A DNA stretch of 64,000 bases from Pedobacter glucosidilyticus DSM 23534 (GTDB taxonomy: Bacteria; Bacteroidota; Bacteroidia; Sphingobacteriales; Sphingobacteriaceae), in contig NZ_KE384311.1 in the NCBI RefSeq assembly GCF_000425145.1, forward strand, positions 186,001 to 250,000, in the 5' to 3' direction. The first letter of the stretch is position 1. The number at the start of each line of letters is the position of its first letter. Below the pieces are notes generated by a model. That model was not told where the DNA came from and ran no database searches. It was given only the letters and a program-made list of their open reading frames with translations. The position numbers and the translations under genes were made by a program. Positions 52,124-55,692 of this stretch are shown piece after piece.

Positions 52124-52420
52124 CTTTTTCTATTTCTCGCATGGCACTTTGTATAGCCCTACCTACGTTGGTATTAGTTTTCCTTACGATATTCCAATGT
52201 GCTTCTTGGAGGTTACTAAGAAATGGTGATGTTCTACAAAAACTGAGTATTCTCCTTGGCTCTTTTTTAAAGCTTTTTCAAATTCTTCATCATATACATC
52301 GCATATTCTTTTAAATAATAAAAGCGGAAAAATGTATTATTTATAATCTCCGGTATCTATGGTACCATGCAATACTTTTGCAGCACCCTAAAGGTATTTT
52401 TCTAGTTCTTGTTGGGTCAT
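52104..52420 (-). pseudogene. hsdM: Decayed N-terminal fragment of type I restriction methyltransferase HsdM
   Basis: Starting from an ATG at 52418-52420 the minus strand reads TQQELEKYL-stop-GAAKVLHG, then TIDTGDYK-stop-YIFPLL, LFKRICDVYDEEFEKALKKS and, after a frameshift, HWNIVRKTNTNVGRAIQSAM and REIEKANPN. This matches the helical N-terminal domain of HsdM with a Trp and a Gln codon changed to stops. The catalytic methyltransferase domain is absent. Its ATG overlaps the TGA of hipT as ATGA, showing it was once translated right after the toxin gene. Confidence 0.85.
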
Positions 52421-53370
52421 ACAGCAGTGTTAAAATATTTTATACGTTGGCTAATAATGGCTTTATATTGTTTTTTATTTTCATCGTTTAAAAAAGAATC
52501 ATCAATCAGTTGGATGGCTTTTGGAAGCCAGCTACCAAGCTTTTTATAAACAGCATGAATTTGTTTGTTATTTAATTGCAAAACATGGCCAAACCTATCA
52601 AAATAGCCCTTATCAAAATTTTTCTTTTTACCTCCTAACAATAGGGCTGTTTCATCAGTATCTTTTGGTAAAATAAGTTTTACGTTTAACAAATCATAAG
52701 CTGGCGCTAGCACCCAACCCATGTCTGAAAGCCACATAGAGAAGTTTTTTAAGTGCATATCGTTATTAGCAATGATAAAGTTAAAAAGCGTTAGCTCAAA
52801 AAAGCGCAACTTATCCATCAGGGTATTTACAGATAATTCTCCGATGGTTTTACCTAAATTTTCCATAGAACCTAAATACTTATCTTCTAGTTCTAAAATT
52901 TGCAGAAAGTCTATCATGTGTATTTTTGCATGGTCTTTCTTACGGTCTATACGTTTGGTTAGGTAACACAATTGGCCAGAGGCTAAACGAATGAGGGTAG
53001 ATGGCACTACTTCTATTTTAAATAATGCAGCCAATTTCATGGATAAATGTTCGTTTTCTGGCATTTGCGAATACTGCGAATTTTGTGGTTTTAAAATATA
53101 CAGTCCCTCTAAAGCATCCATAATGGTTAAACGGCCTTTATGCCCATTTTCTAAGGTATCTTTTATCCAAGCTAATGATAGTTTTGGCTGTACCCCAGGT
53201 ACGGTAATAGATAATTCTACCGCTTGTTTAGCCAGCATTTCCATATCCTGTAATTGATATGGTAAACTTGGTGCCCCACTTGTTCCATAAAAAGCTTTGA
53301 TACATTTAGGATGATAGTCTGCTGTGTGGCTAGTATCTAATGGCTGGTAACAATATAAACACTTAAGCAT
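52417..53370 (-). CDS. HipT-like serine/threonine kinase toxin (HipA C-terminal family)
   Basis: A 317-residue HipA-family kinase without the usual N-terminal subdomain. A zinc-knuckle-like start (CLYC, then HPKC) is followed by the core: ELSITVPGVQPKLSL near 52, YILKPQ near 91, MPENEHLSMKLA near 103, the catalytic loop FNFIIANNDMHLKNFS with Asn203, Asp204 and Asn209, and LAPAYDLL with Asp226. In the E. coli tripartite HipBST system the toxin HipT has an SIS autophosphorylation motif before GxQPKL; here it is SIT (54-56). Characterised HipA/HipT kinases phosphorylate aminoacyl-tRNA synthetases. It overlaps hipS by 8 bp and the hsdM relic by 4 bp. Confidence 0.88.
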   Translation of the reverse strand: MLKCLYCYQPLDTSHTADYHPKCIKAFYGTSGAPSLPYQLQDMEMLAKQAVELSITVPGVQPKLSLAWIKDTLENGHKGRLTIMDALEGLYILKPQNSQYSQMPENEHLSMKLAALFKIEVVPSTLIRLASGQLCYLTKRIDRKKDHAKIHMIDFLQILELEDKYLGSMENLGKTIGELSVNTLMDKLRFFELTLFNFIIANNDMHLKNFSMWLSDMGWVLAPAYDLLNVKLILPKDTDETALLLGGKKKNFDKGYFDRFGHVLQLNNKQIHAVYKKLGSWLPKAIQLIDDSFLNDENKKQYKAIISQRIKYFNTAV

Positions 53371-53698
53371 TTTGGTTTTCAGTTACAGGATGAACACTTA
53401 CTGCACCAATAGTATTTTGGCAACACGCTAACAGCAGGCCCATCCTATCGTTTCTATTGATTTTCCAACTTTCGGCCGCTATTGCTAATAACCAACCTTC
53501 TGGAATTAAGCCATCAAAAAAAGGAAAAAGCCTTTTACTTTTGTATGGACTTGTTCTTACAGGCATTTGAAAAGTGATAAACAAATCAGCATGATTTTGA
53601 ATATATTTTTCATCATAAACAAATTCATACTCGCCAGAGTCTAGCTCTGTTAAAATGCCTGCATTGCTATTGTTATATTTTACAAGAGCTTGTCTCAT
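53363..53698 (-). CDS. HipS-like protein (HipA N-terminal subdomain)
   Basis: A 111-residue protein equivalent to the N-terminal subdomain 1 of HipA: MRQALVKYNNSNAGILTELD, then FQMPVRTSPYKSKRLFPFFD, GLIPEGW and NDRMGLLLACCQNTIGAVSV. In the HipBST arrangement this separate small protein (HipS) is the antitoxin that neutralises HipT. It overlaps hipB by 4 bp (ATGA) and hipT by 8 bp, so all three are translationally coupled. The split is a natural gene boundary, with its own start and stop, not a frameshift in one gene: both parts begin with family-typical N-termini. Confidence 0.85.
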   Translation of the reverse strand: MRQALVKYNNSNAGILTELDSGEYEFVYDEKYIQNHADLFITFQMPVRTSPYKSKRLFPFFDGLIPEGWLLAIAAESWKINRNDRMGLLLACCQNTIGAVSVHPVTENQNA

Positions 53699-53898
53699 GC
53701 TTGTTTCTGATTTACAGGAGCTAAAACTTGCCCAAACATTCTTAATACTTGATTAACTTTAGACAAACTAAGGTTTTCTTTACCTTGTTCAATTTTTCTT
53801 ATTACGGTAAGAGCTACGCCTGCCTTTGCGGCAAACTCCTCCTGTGTGCATTTTAATTGCTTACGTCTGTTTTTAACAAAGTCTGCTAAAGGATTCAT
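53695..53898 (-). CDS. HipB-like XRE antitoxin/repressor
   Basis: A 67-residue helix-turn-helix protein: LADFVKNRRKQLKCTQEEFA, then AGVALTVIRKIEQGKENLSL and a final VNQVLRMFGQVLAPV. It is the DNA-binding member of the HipBST trio and is expected to repress the operon by binding the three 20-bp inverted repeats that start 3 bp upstream of its ATG. Order is hipB-hipS-hipT, as in the tripartite systems. Confidence 0.88.
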   Translation of the reverse strand: MNPLADFVKNRRKQLKCTQEEFAAKAGVALTVIRKIEQGKENLSLSKVNQVLRMFGQVLAPVNQKQA

Positions 53899-53900
53899 TT

Positions 53901-54000
53901 TTATATGCTTTTACATACAATAATAACAAAAATAAGTTATTTATATGCAATTAAATATAAAATATTGATTAAACAGTAATTTATATGTTATCAGATATAA
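53901..54000 (-). promoter_or_regulatory. Three operator-like inverted repeats upstream of hipB
   Basis: Site 1 (53901-53920) is TTATAT-N8-ATACAA, site 2 (53941-53960) is TTATAT-N8-ATATAA, and site 3 (53981-54000) is TTATAT-N8-ATATAA. Starts are exactly 40 bp apart, near four turns of DNA. The 6-8-6 geometry is close to the TATCC-N8-GGATA operators of E. coli HipB. The promoter of hipBST presumably lies among them. Site 3 overlaps the end of the relic at 53991. Confidence 0.65.
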
Positions 54001-54176
54001 TTTTTAAGTTTTTCTTTAAACTTTTGTTCTGTCTGCAAGCTTTCTTCCCGAGCTTTTTTTAAATCTGCCAAAGCCACTTCTACCTTAAGTAAATTATCTT
54101 CAATAATTTTTTATACATATGAGGAGCTAATTGGTGGCGTACGATGTTTTCTATAGGCTGTAGATTAATAGACGCT
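53991..54176 (-). pseudogene. Relic of an unidentified coiled-coil protein C-terminus
   Basis: On the minus strand, in two frames joined by one frameshift, the sequence reads ASINLQPIENIVRHQLAPHM, then IEDNLLKVEVALADLKKARE and ESLQTEQKFKEKLKNYI before a TGA. The last 38 residues form an amphipathic coiled coil. There is an upstream in-frame stop and no start. I cannot name the parent gene. It is upstream of hipB on the same strand and, by position, may have belonged to the same former operon. Confidence 0.5.
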
Positions 54177-54306: not shown

Positions 54307-55692
54307 TTACTTCCCTATACAAAACTTACTAAATATATTCTCCAACAAATCATCCGTAGTAACAGTGCCTGTTATCTCACCCAAATAGTATAAAGCCTGT
54401 TTAATATCCATAGCTAAAAAGTCAGAAGTTACAGGGTTATCTATACCATTTAAAACTCGGCTTAAGGATGCTTCTGTTTTTTGTAAAGCCTCTAAATGAC
54501 GGATGTTGCTTACAATCACTTCATCTTTATTGATTTGACTAAGGTTTGCTGCTTTTAAAAGCTCATCTTCTAATAATTGAATATTGTGTTTTTCCTTTGC
54601 TGAGATATATAAAATCTCGCCTAAAGATTCAAAGCCACTTAAGGCATCGTTAACCTGTGTTTCATCGATTTTATTGGCTACCAAAAGTAACTTGCTATTA
54701 TTTTCTTGGATAACTTGTTGTAAATCATCAATAATAGCTTTTAATTCTGTTAAGGATGTCTCTCTTGGGTCGAACAGATAAAGCACAATGGCTGATGATT
54801 TTATCTTCTCAAAAGTGCGCTCTACTCCTTTTGCTTCAATAATGTCTGCTGTTTCTCTTATCCCTGCGGTATCAATAAATCTAAAACGCACACCTTGCAA
54901 AGTAATTTCGTCTTCTACGGTATCTCTGGTAGTACCAGCAATATCAGAAACGATGGCTCTTTCTTCATTTAATAAAACATTTAACAAGGTAGATTTTCCA
55001 ACGTTGGGCTTTCCTGCAATTACAACGGGTACACCGTTTTTAATCACGTTACCCATCTCAAATGATTGTATCAACCTTGAAACAACTTTATTAATAGCCA
55101 AAATAAGTTGTTTAAGCTGGTCGCGGTTTGCAAATTCTACATCTTCTTCGCTAAAATCTAATTCCAGCTCTATCATAGATGCAAAATGAATGAGTTGCTC
55201 TCTTAAATTCTTCAACTCGTTAGAAAAACCACCACGCATCTGCTGTAAAGCCAGCTGGTGTGCTGATTTTGAACTTGAAGCAATTAAATCTGCAACAGCT
55301 TCTGCCTGAGACAAATCTAAGCCACCATTTAAAAAAGCCCTTAAAGTAAATTCGCCCGCTTTTGCTGCTCTCGCACCATTTTTTATCATCAATTTAATGA
55401 TGCTGGCAATGATATAATCTGAGCCATGGCAGCTAATCTCCACCACATTCTCTTTGGTATATGATTTTGGAGCTACAAAGAGCGAAACTAAAACTTCATC
55501 AATAATAAAACCCTCATCTCTTATGGTTCCAAAATGTATGGTATGCGAGTCTTGGGTTTCTAAATTTTTACCATAAAAAACTTTATTGGTAATGCTAATA
55601 GCTTCTGGTCCTGATAACCTGATAACGCCTATAGCCCCTATTCCTGCTGGTGTTGCTAGTGCAACAATGGTTTCTTCTTGATGTAAAGACAT
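54307..55692 (-). CDS. mnmE: tRNA modification GTPase MnmE
   Basis: A 461-residue GTPase that, with MnmG, installs the 5-carboxymethylaminomethyl group on wobble uridine of certain tRNAs. The N-terminal folate-binding domain includes IVALATPAGIGAIGVIRLSG, and the central helical domain is interrupted by the G domain: GKPNVGKST near 225, TTRDTVED, DTAGIRE near 272 and NKID. The C-terminus is CIGK, the conserved Cys motif. A TATCTTTG box lies just upstream of its ATG. Confidence 0.97.
   Translation of the reverse strand: MSLHQEETIVALATPAGIGAIGVIRLSGPEAISITNKVFYGKNLETQDSHTIHFGTIRDEGFIIDEVLVSLFVAPKSYTKENVVEISCHGSDYIIASIIKLMIKNGARAAKAGEFTLRAFLNGGLDLSQAEAVADLIASSSKSAHQLALQQMRGGFSNELKNLREQLIHFASMIELELDFSEEDVEFANRDQLKQLILAINKVVSRLIQSFEMGNVIKNGVPVVIAGKPNVGKSTLLNVLLNEERAIVSDIAGTTRDTVEDEITLQGVRFRFIDTAGIRETADIIEAKGVERTFEKIKSSAIVLYLFDPRETSLTELKAIIDDLQQVIQENNSKLLLVANKIDETQVNDALSGFESLGEILYISAKEKHNIQLLEDELLKAANLSQINKDEVIVSNIRHLEALQKTEASLSRVLNGIDNPVTSDFLAMDIKQALYYLGEITGTVTTDDLLENIFSKFCIGK

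Follow-up and report, generated by a model that had tools for sequence, protein, structure and literature searches.

Three inverted repeats lie between mnmE and the hipB-hipS-hipT operon of Pedobacter glucosidilyticus DSM 23534, directly upstream of hipB, which raises the question of whether they are operators and for which protein. They were studied within the window, i.e. the whole analysed stretch of 64,000 nucleotides, and in related loci. The earlier note had placed the repeats at 53901, 53941 and 53981 and had described two of them as exact and one as carrying a single mismatch; these coordinates and matches were confirmed and correspond to start-to-start distances of 40 and 40 bp. The gap between the proximal repeat and the start codon of hipB (53898, minus strand) is 2 bp. 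As set out below, the three repeats very probably serve a HipBST toxin-antitoxin operon as autoregulatory operators, with HipB as the predicted binding protein. The features of the locus are listed in Table 1.

Table 1. Genes, candidate operators and predicted promoter element at the hipBST locus, in positions of the window.
Feature	Position	Strand	Basis or remark
hipT, 317 aa, HipA_C kinase, presumed toxin	52417..53370	-	PF07804 E 2.4e-42
hipS, presumed antitoxin of 111 aa, stand-alone HipA N-subdomain 1	53363..53698	-	PF13657 Couple_hipA E 5.8e-23
hipB, 67-aa Xre/Cro-type repressor	53695..53898	-	TIGR03070, PF01381, model, fold match
Proximal candidate operator, TTGTATGTAAAAGCATATAA (read towards hipB)	53901..53920	-	1 mismatch to TTATAT-N8-ATATAA; same place in relatives
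Predicted -7 element, TATTTTTG, exact TAnnTTTG, between proximal and middle operators	53927..53934	-	Register from PMC6847099
Middle candidate operator, TTATATTTAATTGCATATAA, over expected -33 region	53941..53960	-	Exact TTATAT-N8-ATATAA
Distal candidate operator, TTATATCTGATAACATATAA	53981..54000	-	Exact TTATAT-N8-ATATAA; 40-bp pitch kept in relatives
mnmE	54307-55692	-	

The three minus-strand ORFs of the operon overlap by 4 bp (hipB/hipS) and 8 bp (hipS/hipT). HipB matched TIGR03070 with an E-value of 1.2e-19 and 69.9 bits, slightly below the cut-off of 71.65, and its best match by sequence was Legionella HipB (E 1.5e-5). HipB structures were also the best matches by fold; these matches were weak and only 2 of 573 had E-values of 0.001 or lower, both of them to Legionella HipB. 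In the model, the predicted recognition helix comprises residues 30-37 and contains T31 and K35, four residues apart. PF13657 spans residues 6-102 of the 111 residues of HipS, and HipT carries NNDMHLKN at 202 and YDL at 225, which we take to be its catalytic motifs. Since HipS consists of HipA N-subdomain 1 alone and HipT is a HipA_C kinase, the operon is by its domain composition a tripartite HipBST and not hipBA. The array was rightly placed before hipB in the earlier note; hipS and hipT, which follow hipB, are separate, overlapping ORFs. Among solved structures, Legionella HipT was closest to HipT of the window (E 5.9e-39) and that of E. coli O127:H6 was more distant (E 6.8e-12); the HipBST type thus appears closest to the Legionella subclade.

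The split hipS/hipT arrangement was also present in 64 of 80 loci, taken from the best 80 of 138 relatives. The split pair was lacking in 25 of 110 window-type loci, duplicates included, with neither gene found in 18, hipS only in 4 and hipT only in 3. Contig ends truncate some of these loci, and others resemble solitary hipB genes. In Algoriphagus (L044, L045, L053, L058) and others, hipB and the operators were kept with hipS and hipT undetected downstream, as for apparently solitary HipB repressors.

One reading of the repeats is that they are chance palindromes in AT-rich intergenic DNA, and the frequency of the single motif agrees with it. With up to one mismatch, TTATAT-N8-ATATAA was found 4 times in the window versus 1.84 times expected, and 9 of 100 shuffles contained at least 4 copies. 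Exact copies numbered 3 in the 4.02-Mb genome, and the reversed-pattern control also gave 3. The arrangement of the sites is another matter: two exact sites and one near site lie inside 100 bp, and triples with equal spacing (20-100 bp) are expected about 1e-7 times per 64 kb, as calculated from the shuffle rate. When a longer consensus (see below) was searched with up to two mismatches, it was found at 22 places in the genome versus 11 in the control; in the list of the 22, read by eye, only the window's three sites had a neighbour at 39-41 bp. Because the single motif occurs at background frequency, the spacing rather than the motif carries the weight. The operator reading withstood the frequency check named in the earlier note: the single TTATAT-N8-ATATAA is at chance level, but the array lies far above it. 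Elsewhere in the same genome, two near-matches to the consensus lie 96 bp apart (G000 contig 34, 23294 and 23390; L237), with no hip gene within the 3 kb fetched.

Related loci came from a scan of genome contigs with HipB, in which the 80 best of 138 relatives were used; their titles name many Bacteroidota groups. Further loci came from a search of 301 genomes of the window's own family and from two more match listings, with about 30 loci fetched from each of the three. Of the 102 distinct loci in the window-type set, 101 had an upstream region of 150 bp or more. With up to two mismatches to TTATATGY-N4-RCATATAA, a pair of sites at 39-41 bp was found in 92 of these 101 loci and a triple in 44; all 141 spacings between neighbouring sites were 39 (16), 40 (123) or 41 bp (2). 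The shuffle control yielded such a pair in 0 of 2020 cases. With up to three mismatches, the numbers rose to 95 loci with pairs and 68 with triples, and 168 of 168 spacings were 39-41 bp; three members were present in 86 of 101 loci once a right half-site was allowed as the third. No pair at up to two mismatches was found in 9 of the 101 loci and no site at all in 4, and with a looser pattern of the outer framework, 4 of 139 spacings in window-type loci fell outside 39-41 bp. In 90 of the 101 loci, the middle site occupies a fixed place, with its start between -66 and -55 relative to the start codon. As the consensus had been read from these same loci, they were also aligned on the start codon with no motif supplied as a check, and the alignment of the 101 loci revealed three conserved blocks and a promoter stretch. 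The comparison of regions upstream of hipB orthologs, proposed earlier for the repeats, hence bore out the conservation of both the repeats and their spacing. A chance origin was rejected, as pitch and sequence are conserved, and is to be regarded as extremely improbable.

The conserved site, TTATATGY-N4-RCATATAA, is longer than first noted. Among window-type half-sites, 68% have G at -4 and 89% have C or T at -3, and the 6-8-6 description was rejected for this reason: the palindrome is real, but an 8-4-8 layout fits better. A search of a plasmid collection revealed no window-type hipB: 11 of 72,556 records matched at E-values of 1e-5 or lower, all with less than 60% identity.

The repeats could alternatively be operators of another regulator than HipB, such as a host Xre protein or a nucleoid protein, and the genomic surroundings contain an observation in favour of this. 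The window aligns over a long distance with two close relatives, G007 and G001, up to the stop codon of mnmE (window 54307); beyond this point, the alignment is limited to a stretch of 63-65 bp over two operators. Two window-type operators 40 bp apart are present in both genomes, with 0 and 2 mismatches in G007 (L221 2087-2146) and 0 and 0 in G001 (L222 2087-2146). No hip genes were found within the 11 kb fetched from either, and no window-type HipB in a search of the genomes. The next gene after the operators is a type IIG restriction-modification enzyme in G007 and a short ORF matching the HsdM N-terminus in G001. Two genomes without window-type hipB thus keep two good sites after mnmE; these may equally be described as orphan or captured candidate operators. 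In G005, a sister-type hipB occupies the mnmE site and hipS and hipT were undetected. No array of this kind was seen in the short flanks of the other mnmE loci fetched from the genus. With different defence or hip genes in three relatives, the 3' end of mnmE looks like a site of turnover of defence and toxin-antitoxin genes at which operators are left behind.

Against another regulator stand the array's position before hipB in many Bacteroidota hosts and a half-site that varies in step with the recognition helix of its neighbouring hipB. A sister HipB clade, about 53% identical to HipB of the window and represented in the window's own genome as well (G000 contig 16), has upstream regions with a pitch of mostly 40 or 41 bp and sites of the form TTATACCY-N4-RGGTATAA. 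The sister copy of the window's own genome has its sites at -104, -63 and -23 with 3, 2 and 0 mismatches, respectively. A nested subclade of five loci carries TTATATCC. Covariation was assessed over 173 distinct loci, with half-sites picked only by the outer TTATA/TATAA framework at 1 mismatch; framework sites were found in 98 of 102 loci with T31/K35, 20 of 40 with R31/E35, 24 of 24 with R31/D35, 5 of 5 with N31/D35 and 1 of 2 with H31/D35. At base -5, T31/K35 loci had T in 424 of 474 half-sites and N31/D35 loci in 27 of 28, and C was present in 66 of 68 for R31/E35 and 99 of 120 for R31/D35 (165 of 188 for all R31). At base -4, K35 loci had G in 386 of 474 half-sites, R31 loci with either D35 or E35 had C in 178 of 188, and N31/D35 loci were mixed (17 C and 9 G among 28). 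The changed bases -5 and -4 hence track HipB residues 31 and 35, both of which lie in the predicted recognition helix. In E. coli HipB, Lys38 is reported as a base contact (PMC8420761).

In a HipB tree of 70 columns, whose bootstrap had not settled, T31/K35 formed one clade and N31 one clade nested in R31. Because each change corresponds to one clade, the data amount to two independent contrasts (T31 versus R31, and N31 within R31) and not to 173. In the comparison of the two main clades, residue 35 is confounded with residue 31. On the tree, D35 and E35 replace each other many times and -4 stays C. Whole-site patterns at up to three mismatches were tried for class assignment and rejected as a separator of the N31 loci, 4 of 5 of which tied and 1 of which scored best with the window-type pattern; with the same scoring, 10 of 101 T31/K35 loci tied and 4 had no site. 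Symmetric framework sites at 1 mismatch were missing from 20 of 40 R31/E35 loci, and the CC pattern gave the best score for 36 of 39 R31/E35 loci when 3 mismatches were allowed. The two H31/D35 HipBs (L206, L207) have upstream repeats resembling TATAC-N7-GTATA, one base out of register as judged by eye. A general rule of residues 31 and 35 covering every HipB was dismissed as too strong in view of this register shift and of the D35/E35 interchange with -4 constant. One genome (G137 contig 32, 131609 and 134556) contains an N31-type and a T31-type hipB about 3 kb apart. Since the half-site varies with the helix of the adjacent hipB, the nested change included, operators of another regulator are considered improbable. 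The proposal that these are HipB operators with half-sites unlike those of E. coli is supported by the array above chance, the conserved spacing and the covariation of half-site and recognition helix.

The -7 element of Bacteroidota is reported as TAnnTTTG (PMC6847099). With the register published there, transcription of hipB is predicted to start near 53922. Relative to this start, the proximal operator would extend from about +3 to +22 and the middle operator from about -38 to -19, over the -33 element. An exact TAnnTTTG near the middle site was found in 57 of 90 loci compared to 45 of 1800 shuffled 38-bp segments. It lies 5-6 bp downstream of the middle site in 34 loci and 15 bp downstream in 22, with both in one locus. 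Among 90 relatives, 24 share the TTA-to-TTG change of the proximal site. In 22 of these 24, the TTG is part of an exact TAnnTTTG placed 15 bp after the middle site, and the proximal TTG may be frequent because the -7 element there extends into the operator. The exact -7 element of the window itself is situated further upstream, and the operator-overlapping copy is imperfect. For 33 of the 90 loci, no exact TAnnTTTG was present in the vicinity of the middle site, and placement of promoters by the -7 element alone was rejected for its failure in these loci.

The proximal site would fall in the leader just before the start codon and, by inspection, TTATATGC-N4-GCATATAA is able to form a stem, so that the palindromes might act in RNA, with 8-bp stems and 4-nt loops tuning the translation of hipB. 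The middle and distal sites, however, would lie outside the hipB mRNA because they are upstream of the predicted transcription start, and the pitch and the covariation with HipB have no reason at the level of RNA. A function in RNA is consequently judged highly improbable, even more so than another regulator. The array, its conservation, its pitch, the covariation and the overlap with the predicted promoter are established at the level of sequence.

With the repeats as HipB operators, regulation could proceed as follows. A HipB dimer, probably carrying HipT and HipS, would bind each TTATATGY-N4-RCATATAA palindrome. As the middle and proximal sites flank the -7 element, their occupancy would block RNA polymerase at the -33 region and the transcription start and presumably repress the operon. 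The distal site, one 40-bp step beyond, may strengthen occupancy via contacts between neighbouring complexes. The 40-bp pitch is viewed as a fixed constraint on the architecture. HipB residues 31 and 35 on the recognition helix would set the half-site letters -5 and -4, and the difference in specificity would keep the two Hip modules of the genome off each other's operators. Repression of the hipBST operon by HipB has been published for E. coli O127 (PMC10627512) and operator binding for HipBST of Legionella (PMC10653801). The earlier claim that bound dimers are located on one face of the DNA is inexact: 40 bp equal 3.81 turns at 10.5 bp per turn, so that successive dimers would be rotated by about 69 degrees and would not strictly share one face.

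As a set of probable autoregulatory operators of a toxin-antitoxin operon, the array is ordinary in kind, yet it is real and widely conserved, and its specificity family and pitch were not found described in the literature searched. No description of HipB operators from Bacteroidota was found in titles and abstract starts of the open-licence literature on HipBST, HipB and HipBA operators; they may be described elsewhere. The Legionella operators are called the first identified for any HipBST system (PMC10653801). With the present array, a second family of operators would be delineated from sequence; it occurs in many Bacteroidota, keeps a fixed pitch and comes in three natural specificities. 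Two questions thereby become directly testable, namely which residues of HipB select the operator and whether neighbouring HipBST complexes are in contact on the DNA, and the operators offer a handle for finding HipBST modules, solitary hipB genes and orphan arrays. We put forward only tentatively, as a rather doubtful generalisation, that a modular code exists across Bacteroidota HipBST, in which the 40-bp pitch dictates a higher-order assembly, residues 31/35 set bases -5/-4, modules are insulated from each other and arrays outlive their operon and can be captured by other genes, such as the type IIG gene in a close relative.

Among known systems, HipBST_Lp of Legionella pneumophila shares the tripartite operon and three evenly spaced HipB operators, O1-O3, of which O1 overlaps the predicted promoter, and its homologues are reported as widespread in a group including Bacteroidota (PMC10653801). 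The HipBST_Lp operators have 18 nt with 6-nt repeats and gaps of 53 bp (PMC10653801), compared to 20 bp, an 8-4-8 structure and gaps of 20 bp here. The array of the window differs from the layout of the Legionella subclade (18 nt, 53-bp gaps), which was described for Legionella species and is perhaps not defining for the whole subclade. E. coli O127:H6 HipBST has the same three-gene order and a HipB that represses the promoter (PMC10627512); the Legionella operator motifs are said to be absent from it (PMC10653801).

HipBA of E. coli K-12 also has repeated palindromes before hipB, and with the centres aligned, T-9, A-8 and T-7 of the half-site are shared. Its operators, TATCC-N8-GGATA, differ by CC at -6 and -5 in place of AT, and neither TATCC nor GGATA was found at 53899-54060 by direct reading of the sequence. 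Four sites are spaced at 28, 39 and 28 bp, so that one spacing is close to the pitch described here, and hipA is unsplit in contrast to the separate hipS and hipT. By arithmetic only, spacings of 28, 39, 40 and 71 bp, the last one being the sum of 53 and 18 for Legionella, leave residual helical phases of 240, 257, 291 and 274 degrees, respectively. These values would fit a rotational offset shared by the three systems compared.
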